Shown in pieces: positions 3,389 through 17,428 of a stretch of 20,857 nucleotides of DNA; the first letter of the stretch is position 1, and each line of letters begins with the position of its first letter. Where the stretch lies: IMG/VR virus record IMGVR_UViG_3300027906_000188, positions 1-20,857 of that record. One strand, 5' to 3'. The translations under genes and the position numbers were made by a program. The notes under the pieces are model-generated. The model was not told the origin of the DNA. It did not search any database and saw nothing but the letters and a program-made list of their open reading frames with translations. The stretch is from a virus.

Positions 3389-6300
3389 ATGGCAATAGAT
3401 TTTCCAGGCAGCCCCTCGACAGGTCAAAGGCATAGTCATAACAATACAACCTGGGAATGGGACGGTTCTTCTTGGAATCGTATTACCATTGACTTGAGTA
3501 CTACTGATGCAACCACAGTCGTTGGATTAGCAGTAACTCAGTTTGTTAGAAGAGATGACGACAATATAATAACTGGTGTAACTACATTCATTGGTAATGG
3601 TTATACTGGTGTAGGAAACACTGTTCTAATAGTGGAAGGGGATGCTCGTGTCACGGGTGTCCTTTCTGTTGGTCAGGGTTCTGTATCAATTAATGAGAGA
3701 GATATATACGCAGTTGGTGTTGTAACAGGTGCAAACTTTAAGACTGGAACAACTAACGTACATAATGTTGGTGTAGAAGCAGCAGGAATTAATGTACTAG
3801 GTGCAGACACACCAATAGGTACAGGAGCAACAGTATATAATAGTGGTTTAATTGTAAGTAAGTCAGGAGCAGAATATCAAGGTGTCGTTACTGCAACAGA
3901 TAATCTTAATATTGTTACTGATAATAAGAAATTGCAAGTTGGAGCTGGGCAAGATTTAACCCTATATCATGACGGAAATAATAGTATTATAAAAAATGTT
4001 ACAGGTAATTTATATCTAAATGCAAATAATACACAAGCTGGCATATTATTAGTTGGATCTACAGGTGCGGTAACTTTATCTCATGGGGGTAATCTTAAGT
4101 TTGAAACTGAGGCAACTGGAGCTAAAGTCACTGGTGATTTAAATGTAACTGGACATATAGATGTAGCAGACAATGTAAGATTAAAACTTGGTACTCATGA
4201 TGATATTAATATCTATCATGATGGTACAAATTCATTCTTCGAAAATACAGGTGGACATCTTACAATACAGAATGATGTTGCAGGTGGAAATTTATATCTT
4301 AAAGGAAAGTCTGGAGAACATAGTATAATTTGTAATAGAGACGGGGCCGTTGAGATCTACCATGATAATGCAAAGAAGCTAGAAAGCACTAGCGGTGGAA
4401 TAAATGTTACTGGTAAGGCAATTATAGATGCTATAGATGTAACTGAGTTATCAAATGGTGCTACAACTAACGGTATCTTTCTTAATGCTGGTGATACTGG
4501 AGCAGGTAATAGACCTTATCTAGATATAAAAGGTGCTGGTTCTAGTGCGTTATCTGCTAAAGCAATAAAGATTTTCTACAATAATGGTTCTAATGAATCC
4601 TTCTTTGTTGATTATGAAGGAAATATTTCTGGAAGGGATATTAATGGAACTGGTGATTTAACTCTTACATCAACTGATGCTGGAAGTGCTGCTGGCCCAG
4701 AATTTAAACTCTATAGAAACAGTGCTTCACCTGCTGACGCAGATTACATTGGTCAATTAAAATTTGCTGGAGAAAGTGATACGGGTGTAGAGAGAAATTA
4801 TGCAAAGATAACAGGTAAGATATTAGATGCAAGTAACGGAACTGAAGATGGTATTCTTGAGTTTGCACATATTAAAGCAGGTTCACAAACAATCACAGGT
4901 AGATGGAGAAGTGATAGTTTACAATTATTAAATGGTACATCTTTAACTGTTGCTGGAACTTCAGAGTTTACAGGTGATGCTACCTTTAATGGTAATGTTT
5001 CTATTGGTAAGACATTAACATATGAAGACGTTAAGAATATAGATTCCGTTGGTGTTGTAACAGCAAGATCTGGTTTTGAAGTTACGTCTGGTACATTTAA
5101 AGCAAATAGTCAAGTAGGTGCTGCTGGTTCAGTTCTTTCTACTACTGGTTCTGGAATACATTGGGTATCACCATTAACAGGACCACAAGGTGCTCAAGGA
5201 CATCAAGGAGTTCAAGGTGCTCAAGGACATCAAGGACATCAAGGTGTTCAGGGTGCTCAAGGACATCAGGGTGTGCAAGGTGCTCAAGGAAGACAAGGTG
5301 CTGCTGGTGTTGCTGGTGCTCAAGGTGCTCAAGGTGCTACGGGTTCTAGTGGTGGTACTGGAGCACAAGGACATCAAGGAGTCCAAGGTGCTACAGGTTC
5401 TGGTGGATCAACAGGTTCTACTGGTGCTCAAGGACATCAAGGAGTCCAAGGTGCTACAGGTTCTGGTGGATCAACAGGTTCTACTGGTGCTCAAGGACAT
5501 CAAGGAGTTCAAGGTGCTGTAGGAGTATCAGTATCTAATAATGGAGACAATAGAGTAATAACTGGTGGTAGTGGAACCAATTTAAATGGTGAATCAACTT
5601 TAACTTATGATGGAACCACTTTCACCGTTCATGGGATGCAGATTCAAGATGCTGGACGAACGAATAACTTAAAATTTAAAGGTGGGACAGGTACAGATGT
5701 AGGACTTACTTTGTATAACTCAAGTAATACTTGGGTTGCTCAGATGTATGGAACGTCTTCAGGATATTATGGATTCTTAAATGCTAACTGGAACAGCTGG
5801 GATATAAAGAAGCAAGTTAATGGTCAAATGACACTACGAATTGGTAGTACTGAACAAACGGTTTGGCATTCAGGTAATTTTCCCTTTGATACATATTTAA
5901 ATCAGGGAGTCAAAAGTACTTCCAGTCCTACTTTTGTCAATGTTTACGCTAATGACTGGCTTAGAAATAACAATTCAGGAGAGGGTTTATACAACGAAAC
6001 ATCTCAAGGCCACTTTTATCAAGCAGGTGATAACTATTGGCATCTCAACGGTAAAAGCAGCGTAACAAATGGAGCTTTAATTCTTTATGGTGGTCATAAT
6101 AGTTCTCAAGGACATGCAACAGGTCGAAAGGGGTATCTTTATTGGGATTCAAGCGGGTTTGGACTGTTAGATAGTACGGGAAGTTGGGCTTTCAGAACTG
6201 ACGGTACTAATACACATATGGCAAGAGGTCATGTAAATGTTAGTAATAATGTAATCTGTGGTAATTGGTATTACAATAATGCTTCAGGGGAAGGATTATA

Positions 6301-6751
6301 TAACTCTGCGACTACTCAACATTGGTATTCCGATAGTGATGATTATTGGAACTTAGGGGGTGGAACTGGTGCTAATGGCATTATCTTCAGAGATGAACAC
6401 GGTGGAACGATTAGAGGATATTGCTACGCTAATAATAGTAATCAGATAGGATTTTTAAACTCAGGTGGTTCTTGGGCTTTTGCCGTTAATGGATCTACTA
6501 ATGTTATTACTTATCTTGATTTCATTCCTAGTACTGGTGGTAGTAAAGACTTAGGGAGTTCAAGCAATCGTTGGAGAACCATATATGTAAACGATTTAGA
6601 GTTATCAAATGAATCAAAGAAAGATGAAGGTGGTAATGATGTTGATGGAACTTGGGGTAATTGGACGCTCCAAGAAGGAGAAGGGGATATTTTTATGATA
6701 AATAATCGTAATGGTAAAAAGTATAAAATCGCTTTACAGGAGGTGAGTTAA
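3389..6751 (+). CDS. Collagen-like modular tail fibre
   Basis: This 1120-residue protein begins MAIDFPGSPSTGQRHSHNN...WEWDGSSWNR, an N-terminus I recognise from cyanophage fibres. Residues ~190-330 carry YHDGxNS...TGxLxI modules also found in the first fibre. Residues ~598-714 are 39 uninterrupted Gly-X-Y triplets, a collagen-like triple helix. Gln fills 24 of 39 Y positions and there is only one Pro. Residues ~865-1060 hold two copies of a ~100-residue module (EGLYNETSQGHFY and EGLYNSATTQHWY). The C-terminus contains DLGSSSNRWRTIYVNDLELS and ends GTWGNWTLQEGEGD...KKYKIALQEVS, typical of cyanophage fibre ends. It overlaps the next start by one base. A trimeric structural fibre for host contact is well supported; which tail position it occupies is not visible. 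Confidence 0.88.
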   Translation: MAIDFPGSPSTGQRHSHNNTTWEWDGSSWNRITIDLSTTDATTVVGLAVTQFVRRDDDNIITGVTTFIGNGYTGVGNTVLIVEGDARVTGVLSVGQGSVSINERDIYAVGVVTGANFKTGTTNVHNVGVEAAGINVLGADTPIGTGATVYNSGLIVSKSGAEYQGVVTATDNLNIVTDNKKLQVGAGQDLTLYHDGNNSIIKNVTGNLYLNANNTQAGILLVGSTGAVTLSHGGNLKFETEATGAKVTGDLNVTGHIDVADNVRLKLGTHDDINIYHDGTNSFFENTGGHLTIQNDVAGGNLYLKGKSGEHSIICNRDGAVEIYHDNAKKLESTSGGINVTGKAIIDAIDVTELSNGATTNGIFLNAGDTGAGNRPYLDIKGAGSSALSAKAIKIFYNNGSNESFFVDYEGNISGRDINGTGDLTLTSTDAGSAAGPEFKLYRNSASPADADYIGQLKFAGESDTGVERNYAKITGKILDASNGTEDGILEFAHIKAGSQTITGRWRSDSLQLLNGTSLTVAGTSEFTGDATFNGNVSIGKTLTYEDVKNIDSVGVVTARSGFEVTSGTFKANSQVGAAGSVLSTTGSGIHWVSPLTGPQGAQGHQGVQGAQGHQGHQGVQGAQGHQGVQGAQGRQGAAGVAGAQGAQGATGSSGGTGAQGHQGVQGATGSGGSTGSTGAQGHQGVQGATGSGGSTGSTGAQGHQGVQGAVGVSVSNNGDNRVITGGSGTNLNGESTLTYDGTTFTVHGMQIQDAGRTNNLKFKGGTGTDVGLTLYNSSNTWVAQMYGTSSGYYGFLNANWNSWDIKKQVNGQMTLRIGSTEQTVWHSGNFPFDTYLNQGVKSTSSPTFVNVYANDWLRNNNSGEGLYNETSQGHFYQAGDNYWHLNGKSSVTNGALILYGGHNSSQGHATGRKGYLYWDSSGFGLLDSTGSWAFRTDGTNTHMARGHVNVSNNVICGNWYYNNASGEGLYNSATTQHWYSDSDDYWNLGGGTGANGIIFRDEHGGTIRGYCYANNSNQIGFLNSGGSWAFAVNGSTNVITYLDFIPSTGGSKDLGSSSNRWRTIYVNDLELSNESKKDEGGNDVDGTWGNWTLQEGEGDIFMINNRNGKKYKIALQEVS
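4996..5028 (+). repeat. 33-bp direct repeat shared with first fibre gene, copy 2
   Basis: Identical to bases 13-45 and in the same coding frame (SIGKTLTYED). In this gene it comes about 150 bases before the collagen-like segment. Confidence 0.85.
5180..5530 (+). repeat. Collagen-like repeat region with 63-bp tandem units
   Basis: The region is 39 Gly-X-Y codon triplets built from GCT-CAA-GGA and CAT-CAA-GGA units. From 5360 a 63-base unit (GAQGHQGVQGATGSGGSTGST) is present in two near-identical copies, 5360-5422 and 5423-5485; a third copy, from 5486, breaks off after about 30 bases. The near-identity suggests recent slippage or unequal recombination, so copy number is likely to vary between isolates. 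The other long open frames here, on both strands, are by-products of the repeat. Confidence 0.9.
6738..6747 (+). promoter_or_regulatory. Strong Shine-Dalgarno site before the 6751 gene
   Basis: AGGAGGTGAG ends three bases before the ATG at 6751, giving 7 bases between AGGAGG and the start. It is the strongest such site in the window. It lies inside the end of the fibre gene, so the two genes are translationally coupled (TAATG overlap). Confidence 0.8.
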
Positions 6752-7123: not shown

Positions 7124-7624
7124 ATGGCAGTAAATTATTCAGCTGGAGGCAATTCAAGTCAAGGTAGAGTCGTAAAGGTTCATAGAAATACTTATGGTTC
7201 TACGTTTAGTAGTACCAGCACCAATGCCAACATCTTCAATGATACAATTACTCCTACATCTTCTAGTATGTGGTTTGTAATAAATTGGAGAGTTGCAATG
7301 TCTCATAGTTACAATAATTCTAATTATGTTCAAATGTTAATAGGTGGTAGTGTAGTAGCTGGTAGAGGAGGAGGTTCTTATCAATCTTGTGGATCCTCTT
7401 ATTATAATGAGTCTTATGGTAGTGGTCATTTATTTAATGCAGGTTATTACATGTATACTGGACATTATACTCATATTACTTCTAATTCAAATGCATTCCA
7501 ATTTATATTAAGATCTAGGTCACAAGGTGGAACTCATTATGTAAATTATTCATGGGGTTATAATGATAACCAAAGAGGATATCCAATGTGCGAGTATCAC
7601 ATATTAGAAATGGAGGGATCTTAA
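7124..7624 (+). CDS. Ser/Gly/Tyr/Asn-rich small protein, possible fibre tip
   Basis: This 166-residue protein is rich in Ser, Gly, Tyr and Asn and poor in charge, with alternating polar and aromatic residues that suggest a beta fold. Examples are MSHSYNNSNYVQML and the GTHYVNYSWGYNDNQRGY stretch near the end. It starts MAVNYSAGGNSSQG behind AAGGG. Its stop overlaps the next start (TAATG). No family is recognised. Composition and position after the collagen-like fibre, just before a fibre-assembly gene, suggest a small adhesin or fibre tip that works with the chaperone-like protein encoded next. That role is inferred from context. Confidence 0.72.
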   Translation: MAVNYSAGGNSSQGRVVKVHRNTYGSTFSSTSTNANIFNDTITPTSSSMWFVINWRVAMSHSYNNSNYVQMLIGGSVVAGRGGGSYQSCGSSYYNESYGSGHLFNAGYYMYTGHYTHITSNSNAFQFILRSRSQGGTHYVNYSWGYNDNQRGYPMCEYHILEMEGS

Positions 7625-8007
7625 TGACTTATCCTATAGATGTTGCACTATCAGAATATTATGGAGAGTATAAATGGCGTATTGATGATCATGATTATGA
7701 TAAGTTGGATTGGGATTCAAGTAATTCAATATCAAAACCAACAAAATCTGATCTTGAAACTAAACTTGCTGCATTAAATGCGGCAGAACCTATGAAAAGA
7801 CTTAGGTATCGGAGAGATAAGTTACTTGAAGAATGTGATTGGAGAGTAACTAAAGCTGCTGATACTGGTGTTGCTTTATCGGATGATTGGAAAAATTATA
7901 GACAACAGTTAAGAGATCTTCCATCAACACAAAATCCAGTCATATCTCCTACAGAAAATGATAATATTGGTATTTCAAGTGTTACCTGGCCAACTAAACC
8001 TTCATAA
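7624..8007 (+). CDS. Tail fibre assembly protein (Phage_tail_APC-like)
   Basis: The 127-residue product is read from the ATG at 7624, which overlaps the upstream stop; an in-frame ATG at 7588 lies inside the previous gene. Its C-terminal half shows the pattern of tail fibre assembly/chaperone proteins of the Phage_tail_APC type: RLRYRRDKLLEECDW, then DDWKNYRQQLRDLPS and a final WPTKPS. In that family the core R-RRD-LL---DW...W--YRQ-LRD-P is the hallmark. The N-terminal ~55 residues (YGEYKWRIDDHDYDKLDW) are the variable part. Proteins of this kind help fibres fold or attach and are usually encoded just after their client, here probably the protein at 7124 or the fibre at 3389. Confidence 0.78.
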   Translation: MTYPIDVALSEYYGEYKWRIDDHDYDKLDWDSSNSISKPTKSDLETKLAALNAAEPMKRLRYRRDKLLEECDWRVTKAADTGVALSDDWKNYRQQLRDLPSTQNPVISPTENDNIGISSVTWPTKPS

Positions 8008-8018
8008 AAATTATTAAA

Positions 8019-8618
8019 GTGAAATTATCTTACAATGCGGTTCCATTCTTCCCAAGTATGGTTCATGAATTTAAAAATCTTAAATTTGATGATATAAAAA
8101 ATGACTTAATTGAATATGTATATAATGAAAGAGAAAATGATCCTGCAGGACAAGAGTTTTCAAATAGGGGTGGATGGCAATCCACACCATTCAAGATAAG
8201 TGATGAAAATAATACAATACATTCATACATATATGATTCTATTTCAAATTTTACAGTAGTTAATCAGGGTGTACGGATGTACATTGATGCGTGGATGAAT
8301 ATTAATCCTAAAGGTTCTTTTAATGAGAAACATACACATCCTGGTTGTGCTTTTGCTGGAACTATATGGATAAAGATTCCAGAAAATTCTGGTAATTTAT
8401 ATTTTTATTCTCCTTTTGGACATATTAGTAGTGATGAAATAATGTCATATGATTCAAATTTTTCAAATTCTTTTAATATACCTCATACAGCATTCACTAT
8501 ACCTGAAGAAGGTAAGATGTTAATTTTTCCGTCATATCTAGAACACTCTGTTGCAGAAAATAATTCAGATGAAGATAGAATTTCAATGTCATTTAATATA
8601 AAGATAGATAATAGTTGA
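8019..8618 (+). CDS. Putative 2OG-Fe(II) oxygenase (TIGR02466-like)
   Basis: This 199-residue protein starts at GTG 8019 with no clear ribosome binding site; the next in-frame ATG (8058) would remove the conserved-looking NAVPFFPSMVHEF opening. It resembles the small putative 2OG-Fe(II) oxygenases of the TIGR02466 type. It has an AWMNINPKGSFNEKHTHPG stretch with His105/His107 as candidate metal ligands, then a beta strand (AGTIWIKIP), GKMLIFPSYLEHSV with distal His176, and Arg187 as candidate 2-oxoglutarate ligand. These enzymes couple 2-oxoglutarate decarboxylation to hydroxylation; the substrate is not predictable. It opens the modification cassette directly after the fibre-assembly gene. 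An extended -10 promoter for the next gene begins right after its stop. Confidence 0.75.
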   Translation: MKLSYNAVPFFPSMVHEFKNLKFDDIKNDLIEYVYNERENDPAGQEFSNRGGWQSTPFKISDENNTIHSYIYDSISNFTVVNQGVRMYIDAWMNINPKGSFNEKHTHPGCAFAGTIWIKIPENSGNLYFYSPFGHISSDEIMSYDSNFSNSFNIPHTAFTIPEEGKMLIFPSYLEHSVAENNSDEDRISMSFNIKIDNS

Positions 8619-8623
8619 CACCA

Positions 8624-8633
8624 GTGCTATAAT
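8624..8633 (+). promoter_or_regulatory. Possible extended -10 promoter (GTGCTATAAT)
   Basis: GTGCTATAAT contains an extended -10 (TGCTATAAT) and recurs at 14282-14291, with a close variant at 14851-14860. It ends 23 bases before the ATG at 8657. A TTGACA at 8615-8620 is only 7 bases upstream and so cannot be its -35. TTGACA with TATTAT at 8636-8641 (15-base spacer) is a weaker alternative. It could make the 8657-12277 genes a separate transcript. Confidence 0.5.
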
Positions 8634-8656
8634 TATATTATGTGATAATAGATTGA

Positions 8657-9889
8657 ATGAAGTTCAGTATTATAACTCCTGCTCATAAGAAGACACCATA
8701 TATTAAAGAATTATATGATAGCATCGTTGCCCAGACATATGAGGATTGGGAATGGATTCTGTGGTTGAATAATGATATTCAGAAATCAGATTTAGATGAG
8801 AGTATATTAAATGATAATAGAGTTATTATTCATAGGACTGAAAGTAAATCAAAGAATGTAGGATATCATAAGCACTATGCTTTTCATGAAGGTAGTGGTG
8901 ATGTTCTAGTAGAAATAGATTCTGATGATTTAATTACATCAGATTGTCTTGAAGAATTGTATACAGCATACCAAGATCCTGAAGTAGGTTTTGCTTTCAG
9001 TGATGTTGTAATGTATCAGGATGATTTTGTCCCATACAATTCAGAACATGGATGGACACAATATCCTGAGAAGTATAAGTTTAGAGGTAAAGAATATACT
9101 GTAATGAACTCGTGGAAACCTACGAGTCAATCTCTTGCTTTCATATGGTATGCTCCAGATCATGTAAGGAGTTGGAGAAGAGATGTTTATAGAAGTGTTG
9201 GTGGACATGATAAAGAGTTAAGTATATGTGATGATCATGACTTAATGATTCGTACTTATCTTGTTGCTAAGATGCATCACGTTAAGAAACCTCTGTATAT
9301 TTACAGGGTGACTGGTGATAACACATGGTTAGAAAGGAATGAAGCAATACAAAGAATTACAGTTGAACTGTATAATAAGTATGCGTTCCAGTTAGCAGAG
9401 AAAGATGCTGATGATAGAGGATTAACTAAGGTTGATATTGGTGGTGGGTTGTATCCAAAACCAGGATATCTAACAATAGATCAAGAAGATGCTGATGTTA
9501 CATGGAATCTTGATGACGGTATACCTTTACCAGATAATAGTGTTGGTGTTCTTAATGCCAGTCACGTTATAGAGCATCTTAAAGACCCTATAAAGACGAT
9601 GCGTGAGATTCATAGGGTATTGGCACACGGTGGTTGGGCAATGATTGAAGTCCCTTCTACTGATGGTAGAGGAGCATGGCAAGACCCAACTCACGTTAGC
9701 TTCTGGAACGAACATAGTTTCTGGTACTATACTAATCGTGATAAGGCAGTATTCATTCGCAACAATGATATAAGATTCCAAACATATAGATTAGAGACAT
9801 GGGATTCAGCACCAATGATTCCAGTTGTTACTGCATGGTTGGTTGCAATTAAAGATGAAGAGAGGTTCCCAGGAGTACTTGGGATATGA
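8657..9889 (+). CDS. GT2 glycosyltransferase-methyltransferase fusion
   Basis: This 410-residue protein has two enzyme domains. Residues 1-240 are a family 2 (GT-A) glycosyltransferase: FSIITPAHKK start, DSIVAQTYEDWEWILW, a metal-binding D-S-D-D at 88-91 and an acidic CDDHDLMIR motif at 191-199. Residues ~257-410 resemble a class I SAM-dependent methyltransferase: DIGGGLYPKPGYLTID (motif I, acidic Asp275), then ASHVIEHLKDP and a helix-strand pair MREIHRVLAHGGWAMIEVP as in Methyltransf_11 proteins. Known activities would be sugar transfer from a nucleotide sugar plus methylation of the sugar or acceptor. It heads a coupled run of four genes (ATGA overlap at 9886). Cytoplasmic; acceptor unknown: host surface glycan, virion protein or phage DNA are all possible. 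Confidence 0.85.
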   Translation: MKFSIITPAHKKTPYIKELYDSIVAQTYEDWEWILWLNNDIQKSDLDESILNDNRVIIHRTESKSKNVGYHKHYAFHEGSGDVLVEIDSDDLITSDCLEELYTAYQDPEVGFAFSDVVMYQDDFVPYNSEHGWTQYPEKYKFRGKEYTVMNSWKPTSQSLAFIWYAPDHVRSWRRDVYRSVGGHDKELSICDDHDLMIRTYLVAKMHHVKKPLYIYRVTGDNTWLERNEAIQRITVELYNKYAFQLAEKDADDRGLTKVDIGGGLYPKPGYLTIDQEDADVTWNLDDGIPLPDNSVGVLNASHVIEHLKDPIKTMREIHRVLAHGGWAMIEVPSTDGRGAWQDPTHVSFWNEHSFWYYTNRDKAVFIRNNDIRFQTYRLETWDSAPMIPVVTAWLVAIKDEERFPGVLGI

Positions 9890-10602
9890 TTCCATATGAT
9901 CATTGGGTAATTGATAATTTCTTTCCAGTTGAAATGGCAAGACAATTATCTAAGGAGTTTCCTGATTATAATGAACCTGATTGGCACTGGTATAATAATC
10001 CATTAGAGAATAAGAAAGCAAAGAATCATTGGTATGAGTTTCCACCTTTTACCTATCAGATATTTGCTCATTTAAATTCTGCTGAGTTTCTAGAATCTAT
10101 TCGGGAGATTACTGGTATTCAAACTCTGTATCCTGATGTAGGATTGCATGGTGGTGGATGGCATATGCATTCTCGTGGTGGTAAATTAAATATACATCTT
10201 GATTATAATATTAATCCTAAACTAAATCTTCAACGTAAACTAAATCTAATTGTATATCTTACAGAGGATTGGGATACTTCATGGGGTGGTGGACTTGAAT
10301 TGTGGTCACATGATGATGAAAAAAATCTACCTTTAAATAGAGAGGTTGTCGTTGACAATATCTTTAATCGTGCTATACTATTTGACACAACACAGAACTC
10401 TTGGCACGGATTACCACAACCAATAACCTGTCCTGAAGGTGTATATAGAAAGAGCATTGCTGTTTATTATATGACAGACATTCCAGAGGATGCTAACCAA
10501 AGAAAGAGAGCATTGTATGCTCCTACAAAAGAACAAGAAAATGATTCAGATGTTCTGGATTTTATTAAAGAAAGGGTGACATGGAAAAGCAAACAAAAAT
10601 AG
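9886..10602 (+). CDS. 2OG-Fe(II) oxygenase
   Basis: This 238-residue protein starts at the ATGA overlapping the stop of the glycosyltransferase-methyltransferase gene. It has the 2OG-Fe(II) oxygenase jelly roll: GGKLNIHLDYN with H104-x-D106, a central strand KLNLIVYLTEDW, NSWHGLP with distal His174, and GVYRKSIAVYY with Arg188 for 2-oxoglutarate. It is a clear paralogue of the protein at 16703, sharing the GG(K)L-x-x-H-x-D-x-N-I, FNRA-x-(I/L)F and PEG motifs. The likely reaction is 2-oxoglutarate-dependent hydroxylation, with unknown substrate. Lying between two glycosyltransferases, it may modify a sugar or a protein residue that is then glycosylated. The next gene starts inside its last 22 bases. 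Confidence 0.87.
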   Translation: MIPYDHWVIDNFFPVEMARQLSKEFPDYNEPDWHWYNNPLENKKAKNHWYEFPPFTYQIFAHLNSAEFLESIREITGIQTLYPDVGLHGGGWHMHSRGGKLNIHLDYNINPKLNLQRKLNLIVYLTEDWDTSWGGGLELWSHDDEKNLPLNREVVVDNIFNRAILFDTTQNSWHGLPQPITCPEGVYRKSIAVYYMTDIPEDANQRKRALYAPTKEQENDSDVLDFIKERVTWKSKQK

Positions 10603-11699
10603 CAATGATAACGATGTTTAAGAATGAAGCATCGGTTATGGAGAGGATGCTTGAGTCTTGCTATAAGTACATTGATTATTATGTCATGCAGGATAATGGT
10701 TCTACTGATGGTACTGCTGATATTGTAACAGAGTTCTTTAAGGGTAAGGGTATACCAGGATTTGTATATGAAGTAGAAGAAGGATGGGTAAGTTTCGGAT
10801 GGAATAGAGATCATTTACTACAGACATGTCTTAAGACTGAACACGGATGTGATTGGGTACTCAAGATGGATTGTGATGAGTACCTAGAAGTCGATGATGA
10901 TTTTGATTGGACACCGATTAATGATACTTCCCATCAGAGTTTTCATATTACAGCAGTCAATCCTGGATGTATTTACTATCGTGCTTGGATGTGGAACGCA
11001 AAACTTCCTTGGCATTTTAAGCATGACTTAGCACATGAATGTATTGTATGTGATATAGAAGGAGTTGGTGAAGCATTTGAACGATATGATTTACCAAATG
11101 GTATAAGACATGTTGGAACTAATGATGGTGAAAGTTATACTGTTCCTACTAAGTATCTCTCTGATGCATTGAAGTTAGAGGAGAAACATATACGTGAGGG
11201 TGATTTGTTGACAGATACATATCACTTCTTTTATGTTGCAAAGAGTTATGATGATTGTTATAAGGCAGACATCTATCCACTTGAGAATCATTCAAAAGAG
11301 TATGCTAGAAGAGCACTTTTTTATTATGAGGAGTATATAAATCATACTCAGAACTATAGAGAGTTGGGGTATGCTCAGGGCATAAATGAGATGGCATACT
11401 TTAGTTTCTATGCTATGGGTGACATCTATAAACATCTTGGTGAGTATGAGAAGGCAATGGATTGTTGTGTGAGAGCACAGGATTTTTGTCCAGTTAGAAA
11501 TGAACATATAGTTTGTCTTGCAGAATGCTTTATGAACATGGGTGATTATATTTCTATGAAAGAACAGACTGAGAAATTGGTAGATGAGAATAGGAAGTTG
11601 CCATTTCCTGAGTATTATTTTCTAATTAATAATAATTTCTATCCAGATTCAGGAACCTATGGTAAATATCTTCATCAGGTTGCTTGTGAAAACACATGA
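10581..11699 (+). CDS. Family 2 glycosyltransferase with TPR-like C-terminus
   Basis: This 372-residue protein starts behind AAAGGGTG, overlapping the previous gene by 22 bases. Residues ~6-115 are a GT-A glycosyltransferase core: KIAMITMFKNEA, the nucleotide-sugar motif QDNGSTDGT at 37-45 and the metal motif DCDE at 97-100. HECI and DLPNGIRHVGT follow. Residues ~230-345 are helical with a TPR-like pair (AYFSFYAMGDIYKHLGEYEKAMDCCVRA and the following ECFMNMGDYISMKEQ helix), as in SPBc2-type GT2 proteins. TPR segments often bind protein, so a protein acceptor is plausible, though only inferred. It is coupled by ATGA to the next gene. Confidence 0.85.
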   Translation: MEKQTKIAMITMFKNEASVMERMLESCYKYIDYYVMQDNGSTDGTADIVTEFFKGKGIPGFVYEVEEGWVSFGWNRDHLLQTCLKTEHGCDWVLKMDCDEYLEVDDDFDWTPINDTSHQSFHITAVNPGCIYYRAWMWNAKLPWHFKHDLAHECIVCDIEGVGEAFERYDLPNGIRHVGTNDGESYTVPTKYLSDALKLEEKHIREGDLLTDTYHFFYVAKSYDDCYKADIYPLENHSKEYARRALFYYEEYINHTQNYRELGYAQGINEMAYFSFYAMGDIYKHLGEYEKAMDCCVRAQDFCPVRNEHIVCLAECFMNMGDYISMKEQTEKLVDENRKLPFPEYYFLINNNFYPDSGTYGKYLHQVACENT

Positions 11700-12277
11700 A
11701 ATTTATACCAGTAACATCAATCAATAGAGCAGCACAAAAAACAGTGTGGGTAGTTGATAATTTCTATACAGATCCTTATGCTGTTAGAGACTTTGCATTG
11801 AAGCAAGAGTTTAAAGAAGACTTACGATACTATAAAGGAAGACGTACTGAAGAACAGTTCTATGTACCAGGAACTAAAGAAGCATTTGAACGTATCATGG
11901 GTATCAAGATACGTGAATGGGAATCTCATGGTATGAATGGTAGGTTTCAGTATTGTGTTCCTGAAGATCCCATTGTGTATCATAATGATGGACAGACATG
12001 GGCAGCAATGATATATCTACATCCCAATCCAGCATATAGTTGTGGTACATCTCTTTATGCTACTAAGGATGGTGCTATGAGGACTAGTGATTCAAATTAT
12101 GAAGGTGCTTTTGATGGTGGATTCTATGATGGAACTAAGTTTGAGTTGGTAGATTCTATTGGTAATGTATTCAATAGACTGTTCATTTTTGATGCACAAC
12201 ATATACATGCAGCATCACAATATTTTGGAACCAACAAAGAAGACTCTAGACTATTCCAAATTTTCTTCTTTGATTGA
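11696..12277 (+). CDS. DUF6445-like putative oxygenase
   Basis: This 193-residue protein starts at an ATGA overlap with the glycosyltransferase. It opens with VWVVDNFYTDPYAVRDFAL, as seen in proteins I would place in DUF6445, a group related to 2OG-Fe(II) oxygenases. Candidate active-site residues are His96 and Asp98 in YHNDGQTWAAMIYL, His169 or His171 in FDAQHIHAAS, and Arg185 in SRLFQIFFFD. That order (HxD, distal H, R) matches the oxygenase fold, but the family has no settled reaction that I know. It ends the four-gene coupled run; 45 bases follow before the glutaredoxin gene. Confidence 0.75.
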   Translation: MKFIPVTSINRAAQKTVWVVDNFYTDPYAVRDFALKQEFKEDLRYYKGRRTEEQFYVPGTKEAFERIMGIKIREWESHGMNGRFQYCVPEDPIVYHNDGQTWAAMIYLHPNPAYSCGTSLYATKDGAMRTSDSNYEGAFDGGFYDGTKFELVDSIGNVFNRLFIFDAQHIHAASQYFGTNKEDSRLFQIFFFD

Positions 12278-12322: not shown

Positions 12323-12562
12323 ATGCAGAATTTCACAGTCTATAGTAGAGAAGGATGCCCATATTGTGTTAAGATAAAAGAGGTGATGAAGTTAGCTAAC
12401 TTAAGTCATGTTGTCTACAATTTAGGTGAAGATTTTGATAGGGATGCTTTCTACGGACAGTTTGGAGAAGGTTCTACATTCCCTCAAGTGGTTTTGAATG
12501 GAGACAATCTTGGTGGATGTACTGACACCGTTAAATATCTAAAAGAAATGAGTATGGTTTAA
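12323..12562 (+). CDS. nrdC: Glutaredoxin (NrdC-like)
   Basis: This 79-residue protein is a complete small glutaredoxin with the dithiol active site Cys12-Pro-Tyr-Cys15, the cis-proline motif TFPQVVLNG and the glutathione-binding GGCTDTVKYL at the end. Phage glutaredoxins of this size (T4 NrdC is 87 residues) pass electrons from glutathione or thioredoxin reductase to ribonucleotide reductase and so support dNTP supply. ThyX further downstream serves the same purpose. No ribonucleotide reductase gene is in this window. The gene is short but full length, with no sign of decay. The symbol follows T4-like usage; the exact redox partner is not shown. Confidence 0.9.
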   Translation: MQNFTVYSREGCPYCVKIKEVMKLANLSHVVYNLGEDFDRDAFYGQFGEGSTFPQVVLNGDNLGGCTDTVKYLKEMSMV

Positions 12563-14232: not shown

Positions 14233-14255
14233 GTCCAAGAACTTAATATCAATTG

Positions 14256-14281
14256 AGGAGGGTTGTTACCCTCCTTTTTTT
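14256..14281 (+). terminator. Intrinsic terminator
   Basis: GGAGGGT (14257-14263), loop TGTT, ACCCTCC (14268-14274), then seven T residues (14275-14281). It is a GC-rich perfect stem, conspicuous in this AT-rich DNA, placed 24 bases after the stop of the 47-residue peptide gene. It ends the riboswitch-controlled transcript and shares bases with the promoter of the next gene. Confidence 0.92.
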
Positions 14282-14291
14282 GTGCTATAAT
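14263..14291 (+). promoter_or_regulatory. Promoter overlapping the terminator (TTGTTA-17-TATAAT)
   Basis: TTGTTA (14263-14268) lies in the loop and 3' arm of the terminator, followed by a 17-base spacer and an extended -10, TGCTATAAT (14283-14291). Initiation would fall near 14298, the first base of the next ATG. This predicts a leaderless or nearly leaderless mRNA. Confidence 0.65.
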
Positions 14292-14297
14292 AAAGAA

Positions 14298-14840
14298 ATG
14301 GAATTATTTAATAGTTGGCAATGGCAAAAGGGAGAAATTCCTGATGAGATATGTGATTATATTATTAATAATATAGATGATAATTTATATAAAAAAGGTG
14401 AAGTAGCAAATAGTAAGTTAAAGTCTGCAAGAAATGTAAATATACAAACCACTAATATCAATTGGATAAATGCATTACTTGGTGGTTATATAAGGTATGC
14501 TAATTCTAAAAATTTTAATTACAATTTATCGGATAATGATATAGAATCAGCACAGATTTCTAAGTATTCTGTAGGTGAATATTATGGTGAGCATATGGAT
14601 TTTGGAAAGGATGATAATCTAACAAGAAAGTTAAGTCTAACTGTTCAACTTTCGGATGAAAATGATTATGAAGGAGGGGATCTTATATTTTACACTGGTT
14701 CTAATAGAGAAAAATCTTCTAGAGGTAAAGGAAGTGTTATTGTTTTTGATAGTAGATTGTATCATGAAATAACTCCCGTCACTAAAGGTGTGAGATATTC
14801 TTTGGTTAAATGGTATCATGGAGATGTACCATTGAAATAA
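14298..14840 (+). CDS. Prolyl-4-hydroxylase-like 2OG-Fe(II) oxygenase
   Basis: The 180-residue product is read from ATG 14298; an earlier in-frame start at 14253 would run through the terminator. It resembles P4H/PKHD-type oxygenases: ISKYSVGEYYGEHMDFG with H99-x-D101, KLSLTVQLSDENDYEGGDLIFY, GSVIVFDSRLYHEITPV with distal His156, and GVRYSLVKWYHG with Arg166. All ligands for iron and 2-oxoglutarate are present. The known family reaction is hydroxylation of amino-acid side chains, often Pro, in proteins; the substrate here is unknown. Cyanophages commonly carry such genes. It has its own promoter and no visible ribosome binding site, consistent with a leaderless transcript. Confidence 0.87.
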   Translation: MELFNSWQWQKGEIPDEICDYIINNIDDNLYKKGEVANSKLKSARNVNIQTTNINWINALLGGYIRYANSKNFNYNLSDNDIESAQISKYSVGEYYGEHMDFGKDDNLTRKLSLTVQLSDENDYEGGDLIFYTGSNREKSSRGKGSVIVFDSRLYHEITPVTKGVRYSLVKWYHGDVPLK

Positions 14841-16702: not shown

Positions 16703-17428
16703 ATGCAAATCTTTAGTGATTATGATCAGGGAAAGAAGTTAAACTTTAATTACTTAAAGTCTAAACCCTTCCCTCATATAGTTTTAGATAACTTTATTAA
16801 TCCTGCTGCTGCAATGCAGTGCTTTAATGAATTAAAATCTACAAACTATTGGCAGACTGAAGATTCTAATAATGCATATATGGCAGCACATCAAGTGAGT
16901 AAGTGGTTTACTCCTTGGGATGCTCAGAGTACAGAACAACTTAAGTACCAAGTTCCCACAGTTCATAATACTATTCAGTATTTTAACTCTAAGTTATTTC
17001 TTTCATATCTTGAGGAATTAACTGGTATCAAAGGGTTGATGGGAGACCCAGGTTTCTCAGGTGGTGGAGCACACAAGATAAGAACGGGTGGTAAGTTATC
17101 ATTACATGTTGACTTTAACATTCATTCTGAGACAAAACGTTTCAGAGTTCTTAATCTTCTTCTTTATCTTAATCCTCAATGGGAGGAAGAGTGGGAAGGT
17201 GCATTAGAATTATGGGATTTAGACAATAAGAAACTAACTGATAAGATATATCCTATCTTTAACAGAGCAGTTATCTTTACCCTGTCTGATAAATCAGTTC
17301 ATGGACATCCCGTTCCCTTAAAAACACCAGAAGGAATTGAAAGATATTCTTTAGCACTTTATTATTACATTGAAGAACCCAACCAAGAATATTATGAAAG
17401 GAACTCAGTTGTCTGGCATGAACTTTAA
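16703..17428 (+). CDS. 2OG-Fe(II) oxygenase, paralogue of the 9886 protein
   Basis: This 241-residue protein starts one base after the phoH stop. Active-site residues are clear: GGKLSLHVDFNIH with H135-x-D137, VLNLLLYLNPQWEEEWEGALELW, FNRAVIFTLSDKSVHGHP with distal His200, and GIERYSLALYYY with Arg214. It shares order and several motifs with the protein at 9886, so one probably arose by duplication or both came from a common phage pool. The reaction is presumably 2-oxoglutarate-dependent hydroxylation; the substrate is unknown. Being located between phoH and DNA-replication genes, it may act on a different target from the copy inside the glycosyltransferase cassette. Confidence 0.87.
   Translation: MQIFSDYDQGKKLNFNYLKSKPFPHIVLDNFINPAAAMQCFNELKSTNYWQTEDSNNAYMAAHQVSKWFTPWDAQSTEQLKYQVPTVHNTIQYFNSKLFLSYLEELTGIKGLMGDPGFSGGGAHKIRTGGKLSLHVDFNIHSETKRFRVLNLLLYLNPQWEEEWEGALELWDLDNKKLTDKIYPIFNRAVIFTLSDKSVHGHPVPLKTPEGIERYSLALYYYIEEPNQEYYERNSVVWHEL

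Follow-up and report, generated by a model that had tools for sequence, protein, structure and literature searches.

The window, a 20,857-nt stretch of DNA from a cyanobacterial virus, carries a block of fibre genes followed by a cassette of enzyme genes; all features described here lie on the plus strand. The first gene (2–2728), whose 5' end lies beyond the contig, encodes a fibre protein with a C-terminal C1q domain (Pfam C1q, E 6.1e-12), a possible co-substrate of the enzymes. It is followed by a gene for a long tail fibre with a collagen-like domain (3389–6751), the proposed substrate. This fibre matches Pfam Collagen (E 5.1e-15; 55.4 bits versus a cutoff of 27.2), and a repeat count gave 39 consecutive, uninterrupted Gly-X-Y triplets at residues 598–714 (5180–5530). 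A tail-fibre assembly chaperone, Phage_tail_APC (7618–8007; Pfam E 1.1e-13, PHROG 4912 E 2.2e-16), completes the block, and two small genes sit between it and the collagen-containing fibre. The original prediction had placed the cassette directly after two long fibres and a chaperone, and all three were found. The collagen-like repeat had gone unmentioned there.

In the 39 triplets, position Y is occupied by Gln in 62% and by Thr in 21% of cases. The triplets hold 0 Lys, 0 Pro at Y and 1 Pro at X, and the collagen domain contains no Cys. Classical collagen chemistry does not fit a repeat with a single Pro and without Lys. Prolyl-4-hydroxylation was rejected on the lack of Pro at Y, and lysyl hydroxylation–glycosylation of the animal or mimivirus type on the lack of Lys. 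Across cassette phages, Lys and Pro make up 0.2–0.6% and 0.7–2.8% of Y positions, respectively; Pro at X reaches 12–15% in relatives, versus 1/39 in the window.

The cassette begins with a TIGR02466/2OG-FeII_Oxy_5 oxygenase (8019–8618). Next come GT2MT, a family-2 glycosyltransferase fused to a SAM methyltransferase (8657–9889); a 2OG-FeII_Oxy_3, prolyl-4-hydroxylase-like oxygenase (9886–10602); GT2TPR, a GT-A glycosyltransferase with a C-terminal TPR region (10581–11699); and a DUF6445-type 2OG-Fe(II) oxygenase (11696–12277). All five genes are intact in an ORF check, and ORF calls and domain searches agree with the domains and overlaps originally predicted. A 38-base gap separates the first two genes, and the last four overlap successively by 4, 22 and 4 bases. 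In deduplicated related contigs, the intergenic gap was at most 10 bases in 60/61 GT2TPR–DUF6445 pairs, 21/21 GT2MT–2OG pairs and 48/57 2OG–GT2TPR pairs. Because the overlaps recur in these contigs, they exceed what chance would give, and coupling is kept although gene order varies.

The TIGR02466 gene stands apart from this pattern. It forms at most five adjacency pairs in related contigs, its GC content is 29% versus 34–36% for the other four genes, and in the nearest relative (L010) other genes occupy its place. The predicted five-gene grouping thus holds for a four-gene core: conservation extends to the last four genes, and the first is accessory. Within the core, the 2OG-FeII_Oxy_3 gene is missing from some relatives. 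The T4-late-promoter motif TATAAATA occurs twice in the window, versus 3.2 matches expected. A PADLOC search for defence systems returned a generic Cas-associated 2OG match and nothing else, and a defence reading was rejected on that basis.

Domain and motif evidence supports the three oxygenase assignments. The first protein matches 2OG-FeII_Oxy_5 (5e-21) and exceeds the TIGR02466 cutoff. The third matches 2OG-FeII_Oxy_3 (2e-15; 57.9 bits, cutoff 27), and its H104xD106, H174 and R188 are present in 72/72 homologues. The fifth matches DUF6445 (1.4e-8), a family named by no paper in our search of the open-access literature. Its H96xD98, H171 and R185, invariant among 54 homologues, form a putative iron triad and 2OG-binding residue. 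An AlphaFold2 model of this protein (pLDDT 90.9) has a double-stranded beta-helix fold, aligning with OGFOD1 (VIA Z 13.8, 161 residues, rmsd 3.3), a Pseudomonas P4H (Z 13.6) and PHD2 (Z 13.3). By predicted fold and HxD...H...R motif, then, the DUF6445 gene belongs to the 2OG-Fe(II) oxygenase superfamily. Fusions of DUF6445 to GT2TPR occur in 28 contig clusters. Two PHROG annotations, ‘minor coat protein’ (phrog_1644) for the DUF6445 protein and ‘DNA endonuclease V’ (phrog_274) for the oxygenases, were rejected, as domains and fold are those of 2OG oxygenases.

Both glycosyltransferases retain the expected acidic motifs. GT2MT matches Glycos_transf_2 (1e-14; 55.1 bits, cutoff 23.3) and Methyltransf_11 (6e-9; 36.8 bits, cutoff 21.2), and D88/D90/D91, D260-GGG and D275 are conserved across 82 homologues. 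GT2TPR matches Glyco_tranf_2_4 and Glycos_transf_2 (about 1e-6) and TPR (2e-5); it has a GT-A fold with a DxD-type motif, D97xD99E100, invariant among homologues. The best Foldseek matches of its AlphaFold2 model (pLDDT 95) were SunS and ThuS (E 3e-14, TM 0.6, over most of the length), and its profile matches among solved glycosyltransferase domains included GmaR, ThuS and SunS. In modelled fold and in architecture, GT2TPR resembles polypeptide glycosyltransferases, and a protein acceptor is predicted.

In the window, the collagen-containing fibre stands 1.9 kb upstream of the four-gene core, and we analyzed other phages for the same association. Among GT2MT records of at least 60 kb, 11/12 have at least 12 consecutive GXX triplets (one positive being a single match), versus 0/17 T4-like cyanophage records lacking GT2MT (Fisher 3e-7); the phage contigs share kinship, and the control phages and run-length thresholds were our choice. 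Of 52 phage clusters that encode both GT2MT and GT2TPR and extend at least 1.5 kb upstream, 28 had a collagen-like ORF within 6 kb; clusters with the oxygenase gene only gave 0/18. A flank-gene scan meant as a matched control reached 19 loci, which is too few. Thus, in environmental phage contigs, the four-gene core accompanies collagen-like fibres. The cultured phage S-CRM01 also has both GT2MT and collagen repeats, and in DSL-LC02 a different set (a glycosyltransferase, an FkbM methyltransferase and DUF6445) directly adjoins a collagen-like fibre gene.

The association is not strict in either direction. Roughly one in two cassette fragments from phages lacks a collagen repeat within 6 kb, and a single 72 kb record lacks one altogether. 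Cassettes away from fibres, which the original prediction had named as evidence against itself, do occur in one lineage, although its longest records have collagen repeats elsewhere. Conversely, most collagen-like phage proteins have no cassette (115/120 sampled loci).

Bacterial homologues of GT2MT show the same association. These are 35–50% identical to the phage enzyme, occur in Bacteroidota, Chlorobi, Planctomycetes, Proteobacteria and Actinobacteria, and are single-copy in 16/17 genomes. A collagen-like run was present within 10 kb in 13/17 loci, versus 0/61 control methyltransferase-only loci in the same search (Fisher 1e-11). The runs comprise 22–164 triplets and mostly lie in the adjacent gene; Mucilaginibacter flavidus, an isolate, has the enzyme together with collagen-like genes. 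Enzyme-linked repeats are also alike in composition, with Gln at ∼52–53% of Y positions in bacteria and phages, compared with 15% for random viral repeats and 19% for control repeats of Bacteroidota. No relatives of the cassette oxygenases were detected within 10 kb of the bacterial GT2MT homologues beside collagen genes, so hydroxylation need not precede glycosylation and methylation, the order that the original prediction had proposed. Scanning bacterial genomes for GT2TPR gave 60 pattern matches, of which 0 were confirmed.

These data, which concern association and fold, suggest that the genes at 8657–12277 probably form a modification system dedicated to collagen-like tail fibres. The original prediction had offered fibres, host surface glycan and DNA as targets. 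Decoration of the collagen-like fibre is the most likely, because GT2MT relatives adjoin collagen-like genes in many unrelated bacteria. The fibre as target is well supported by the phage and bacterial associations, from which we infer the substrate itself. GT2TPR would bind the fibre polypeptide through its TPR region and attach the first sugar to Gly-X-Y side chains. GT2MT would add a further sugar and then a methyl cap, and the 2OG-FeII_Oxy_3 and DUF6445 oxygenases would hydroxylate the polypeptide or its sugar. The fibre might gain stiffness, protection or antigenic variability. Within this model, the first-acting enzyme, the residue that carries the sugar, the identity of that sugar and the gain for the phage are inferred. 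More tentatively, GT2MT may mark a collagen-glycosylation pathway of phages and scattered bacteria, unrelated to LH/GLT25D and targeting a residue that is neither Lys nor Pro. Judging from repeat composition, candidates are Y-position Thr or, without precedent, Gln.

Alternatively, the enzymes could remodel host LPS or O-antigen during infection, for instance against superinfection, with the nearby fibres reflecting a host-interaction island. Host-recognition glycosyltransferases of related myophages are so interpreted in passages of PMC7029224. DUF6445 lies within LPS-type nucleotide-sugar/glycosyltransferase clusters in S-SSM7 and Sf-FS3, phages without GXX repeats, and UDP-galactopyranose mutase is present in 7/96 cassette clusters. 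However, the window's cassette has no genes for nucleotide-sugar synthesis, lipid-linked initiation, a flippase or a polymerase, which makes a host glycan less likely. The bacterial collagen-like neighbours and the architecture of GT2TPR also argue against this alternative, and we consider it unlikely. Less probable still is that the collagen-like fibres are bystanders in a structural island and that the enzymes act on virion proteins of another kind, for example small baseplate proteins or the fibre with the C1q tip. Besides the C1q fibre gene, the block does contain several small genes associated with fibres, and in S-WAM2 DUF6445 and a TIGR02466-type oxygenase follow tail fibre genes, yet there is no GXX repeat. 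But the bacterial homologues indicate collagen-like proteins specifically, and their partners' Gly-X-Y composition is shifted in the same direction as in phages.

A 2OG oxygenase with a glycosyltransferase is also an established logic of DNA base modification, as in the TET/JBP pathway. Hydroxylation then glycosylation of phage DNA bases is nonetheless highly improbable and was rejected as the main reading: the oxygenases are of 2OG-FeII_Oxy_3, TIGR02466 and DUF6445 types with no TET/JBP-family match, the DUF6445 fold is close to protein hydroxylases, bacterial GT2MT homologues adjoin collagen-like genes, and, according to a review, there is no evidence that cyanomyoviruses have glycosylated DNA (PMC2984593).

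Cyanophage host-recognition regions often encode glycosyltransferases and 2OG oxygenases, which are usually assigned to host LPS or repair. If fibre modification is correct, the collagen-like fibres of the phage itself are what a recurrent set of these enzymes modifies, and GT2MT would be a sequence marker of modified collagen-like proteins across bacteria. The cassette could also yield enzymes for modified recombinant collagen.

The original prediction knew of no described system of exactly this composition, and our search of open-access papers likewise found no description of a collagen-linked cassette of this kind. Pelagi- and cyanomyophages offer the same genomic setting, with glycosyltransferases of the host-recognition cluster beside tail fibres; the authors inferred O-antigen alteration, and the PMC7029224 passages describe no collagen-linked module. 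Mimivirus has collagen-like proteins plus its own oxygenase and glycosyltransferase activities, the lysyl hydroxylase-glucosyltransferase L230 and R699 (PMC9546862). The window shares this combination, here known from genes. However, the mimivirus enzymes are reportedly homologous to the animal LH/GLT25D enzymes acting on hydroxylysine, whereas the window has GT2-type glycosyltransferases, a fused methyltransferase and a Lys-free repeat with a single Pro. Like GT2TPR, GmaR of Listeria has a TPR region after its glycosyltransferase domain, for which a role in holding the protein substrate has been proposed (PMC9638930). GmaR differs in having an additional linker and antirepressor domain and in glycosylating flagellin. 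SunS and ThuS are peptide S-glycosyltransferases acting on cysteine of bacteriocins. Their fold is like that of the GT2TPR model, yet identity is about 11–14%, and the window's collagen domain lacks their acceptor residue. BclA-type bacterial collagen-like proteins form surface filaments of Gly-X-Y repeats whose O-glycans include methylated sugars. At the level of general description, these glycosylated filaments resemble the modified fibre proposed here.

The 20,857-base window spans an entire viral record. It is of a T4-like cyanophage type: its right half shares the gene order ThyX-PhoH-exonuclease-gp59-gp32 with Synechococcus phage S-CRM01. The five cassette genes (8019–12277) are intact and all in one direction, domain searches bore out the domains originally assigned to them, and the final four overlap by 4, 22 and 4 bases, as predicted. 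Upstream lie genes for a C1q-tipped fibre (2–2728) and a 1120-residue fibre (3389–6751), then a pair of small genes and the gene for a tail-fibre assembly chaperone (Phage_tail_APC, 7618–8007). Absent from the original prediction is a run of 39 consecutive Gly-X-Y triplets in the second fibre (5180–5530; Pfam Collagen, E 5.1e-15). We use 'collagen-like' for Gly-X-Y repeats read from sequence; repeats alone are no proof of a triple helix. In animals, C1q domains come after collagen stretches, unlike the window, where the two are found on neighbouring fibre genes.

Directly 3' of the cassette is a glutaredoxin gene (12323–12562), kept in most cyanophage relatives, including at the same position in S-CRM01. 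In total, the window encodes five oxygenases within 21 kb. One of PKHD/YbiX type (14253–14840; PHROG 61, GC 29%) has relatives in another phage lineage (loci L185, L190 and L174) directly 5' of the cassette oxygenase, adjoining long collagen-like fibres. A 2OG-FeII_Oxy_3 oxygenase (16703–17428) sits directly 3' of PhoH, a position kept in many relatives. PHROG families 274 and 1644 are named 'DNA endonuclease V' and 'minor coat protein', as in RefSeq cyanophage annotation, yet match 2OG oxygenases of the window (9886–12277).

Scanning IMG/VR with four of the cassette proteins gave 220 loci, and further loci were fetched later; near-duplicates were collapsed by shared 25-mers, the contigs still being related to one another. 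Among them, a recurrent unit was seen: the GT2-methyltransferase fusion (GT2MT; 8657–9889 in the window), a 2OG-FeII_Oxy_3 oxygenase (9886–10602; missing in some), a glycosyltransferase with C-terminal TPR (GT2TPR; 10581–11699) and DUF6445 (11696–12277). Hence the last four genes of the predicted five-gene cassette hold together, but the TIGR02466 gene (8019–8618) falls outside the unit: in the closely related L010, that place is taken by two different genes. Overlapping or nearly touching genes were found for GT2TPR-DUF6445 (60/61), GT2MT-oxygenase (21/21), oxygenase-GT2TPR (48/57) and DUF6445-GT2MT (26/27), and this tight spacing persists even where gene order differs. GT2TPR is joined to DUF6445 in a single polypeptide in 28 contig clusters; several such fusions bear an N-terminal extension, which in one contig (L148) is a methyltransferase domain.

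A collagen-like ORF lay within 6 kb in 28 of the 52 clusters with GT2MT, GT2TPR and at least 1.5 kb of upstream sequence, and in none of the 18 with the oxygenase only. Because contig fragments hide distant fibres, we also searched whole records for 12 consecutive GGN(7) units. Eleven of the 12 GT2MT records of at least 60 kb matched, one by a single site only, versus 0 of 17 T4-like cyanophage records without GT2MT (Fisher p 3e-7), the control phages being picked by us and mostly marine. A stricter count, with the single-site record as negative and with DSL-LC02 and S-SCSM2R (phages carrying a different cassette plus collagen repeats) as controls, gave p 8e-5. The cassette is not required for viral collagen-like genes, as 115 of 120 sampled lacked it. 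Nor is the DUF6445 family limited to collagen, for members are also present in LPS-type clusters of phages that have no collagen repeats.

Bacterial loci provide the strongest evidence for the collagen link. A genome profile scan found full-length GT2MT fusions with 35–50% identity in Bacteroidota, Chlorobi, Planctomycetes, several Proteobacteria and Actinobacteria; the fusion is rare, with a frequency of about 1% across the genomes of three groups sampled, and single-copy in 16 of 17 genomes. Runs of 22–164 Gly-X-Y triplets lay within 10 kb of 13 of the 17 fusion loci, mostly in an adjacent gene (12 is the safe count, as the run in locus L394 is on the strand opposite a long ORF). No run of 15 triplets was present at any of 61 control loci from the same search that matched only the methyltransferase part or part of the fusion (Fisher p 1e-11). 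The two Mucilaginibacter loci are related, as are the two from Betaproteobacteria, so independent cases are slightly fewer. Locus L461, a fusion match that turned up afterwards, likewise has a collagen-like gene next to it. As background, a run of 20 anywhere in the genome was present in 16 of 198 Bacteroidota genomes. No relatives of the phage oxygenases were detected at the bacterial fusion loci, which suggests that GT2MT is independent of these enzymes. In Planctomycete genomes, GT2TPR is weakly matched (E 1e-9 to 3e-11) a few kb from the fusion (L391 9143; L395 3345).

In DSL-LC02, a different enzyme set directly adjoins a collagen-like fibre gene, annotated as a mannosyltransferase, a TPR-FkbM methyltransferase-radical SAM protein and DUF6445. 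The second of these, a radical SAM/SPASM protein (9827–11980 of its contig, L002), lies between the putative mannosyltransferase and DUF6445. In S-SCSM2R, a candidate glycosyltransferase is placed in a similar way, and there is a TPR-DUF6445 fusion. That such enzymes have come together separately beside collagen-like fibres speaks for a function directed at the fibre. Synechococcus phage S-CREM1 (L377 1–4781) carries a head-to-tail row of seven annotated 2OG-Fe(II) oxygenases, one a DUF6445 relative, together with a JmjC gene.

In the window repeat, the X position is mostly Ala, Val, His or Ser, and the Y position mostly Gln (62%) or Thr (21%). Its single Pro and lack of Lys rule out classical prolyl or lysyl chemistry as the main one. 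Gln at Y had a median of 0.53 in GT2MT-linked phage repeats (random viral repeats, 0.15; p 3e-11) and of 0.52 in GT2MT-linked bacterial repeats (Bacteroidota controls, 0.19; p 3e-5). This enrichment makes Gln or Thr candidate acceptors, although Gln may merely be a favoured structural residue. UDP-galactopyranose mutase is encoded directly 5' of GT2TPR in 7 of 96 clusters (e.g. L024 11230–12255, L051 3663–4688 and L126 7824–8855), suggesting galactofuranose as one donor in mutase-bearing phages; the window has no such gene.

Computation established the domains, gene coupling, fusion and association with collagen-like genes. The cassette most likely glycosylates, methylates and hydroxylates the fibre polypeptide. 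Here we infer substrate, order of steps, linkage and benefit: GT2TPR would glycosylate the polypeptide, GT2MT would then lengthen the glycan and methylate, and the two coupled oxygenases would hydroxylate polypeptide or sugar. The DUF6445 model (pLDDT 90.9) gave 2OG oxygenases, mostly protein-acting, as top structural matches, namely OGFOD1 (Z 13.8), Pseudomonas prolyl-4-hydroxylase (13.6) and PHD2 (13.3), and its H96, D98, H171 and R185 are invariant across 54 homologues. The GT2MT profile matches glycosyltransferase domains from TarS, chondroitin synthase and GalT1. Both the acidic motifs of the GT domains and the motifs of the methyltransferase are conserved. For GT2TPR (pLDDT 95), the top six Foldseek matches were all to the peptide S-glycosyltransferases SunS or ThuS (E 3e-14 to 6e-13), with a drop to E 3e-7 at the seventh. 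The GT2TPR profile also matches GmaR (E 1.6e-10), a flagellin glycosyltransferase that, like GT2TPR, combines a glycosyltransferase with a TPR region, in GmaR proposed to hold the protein substrate.
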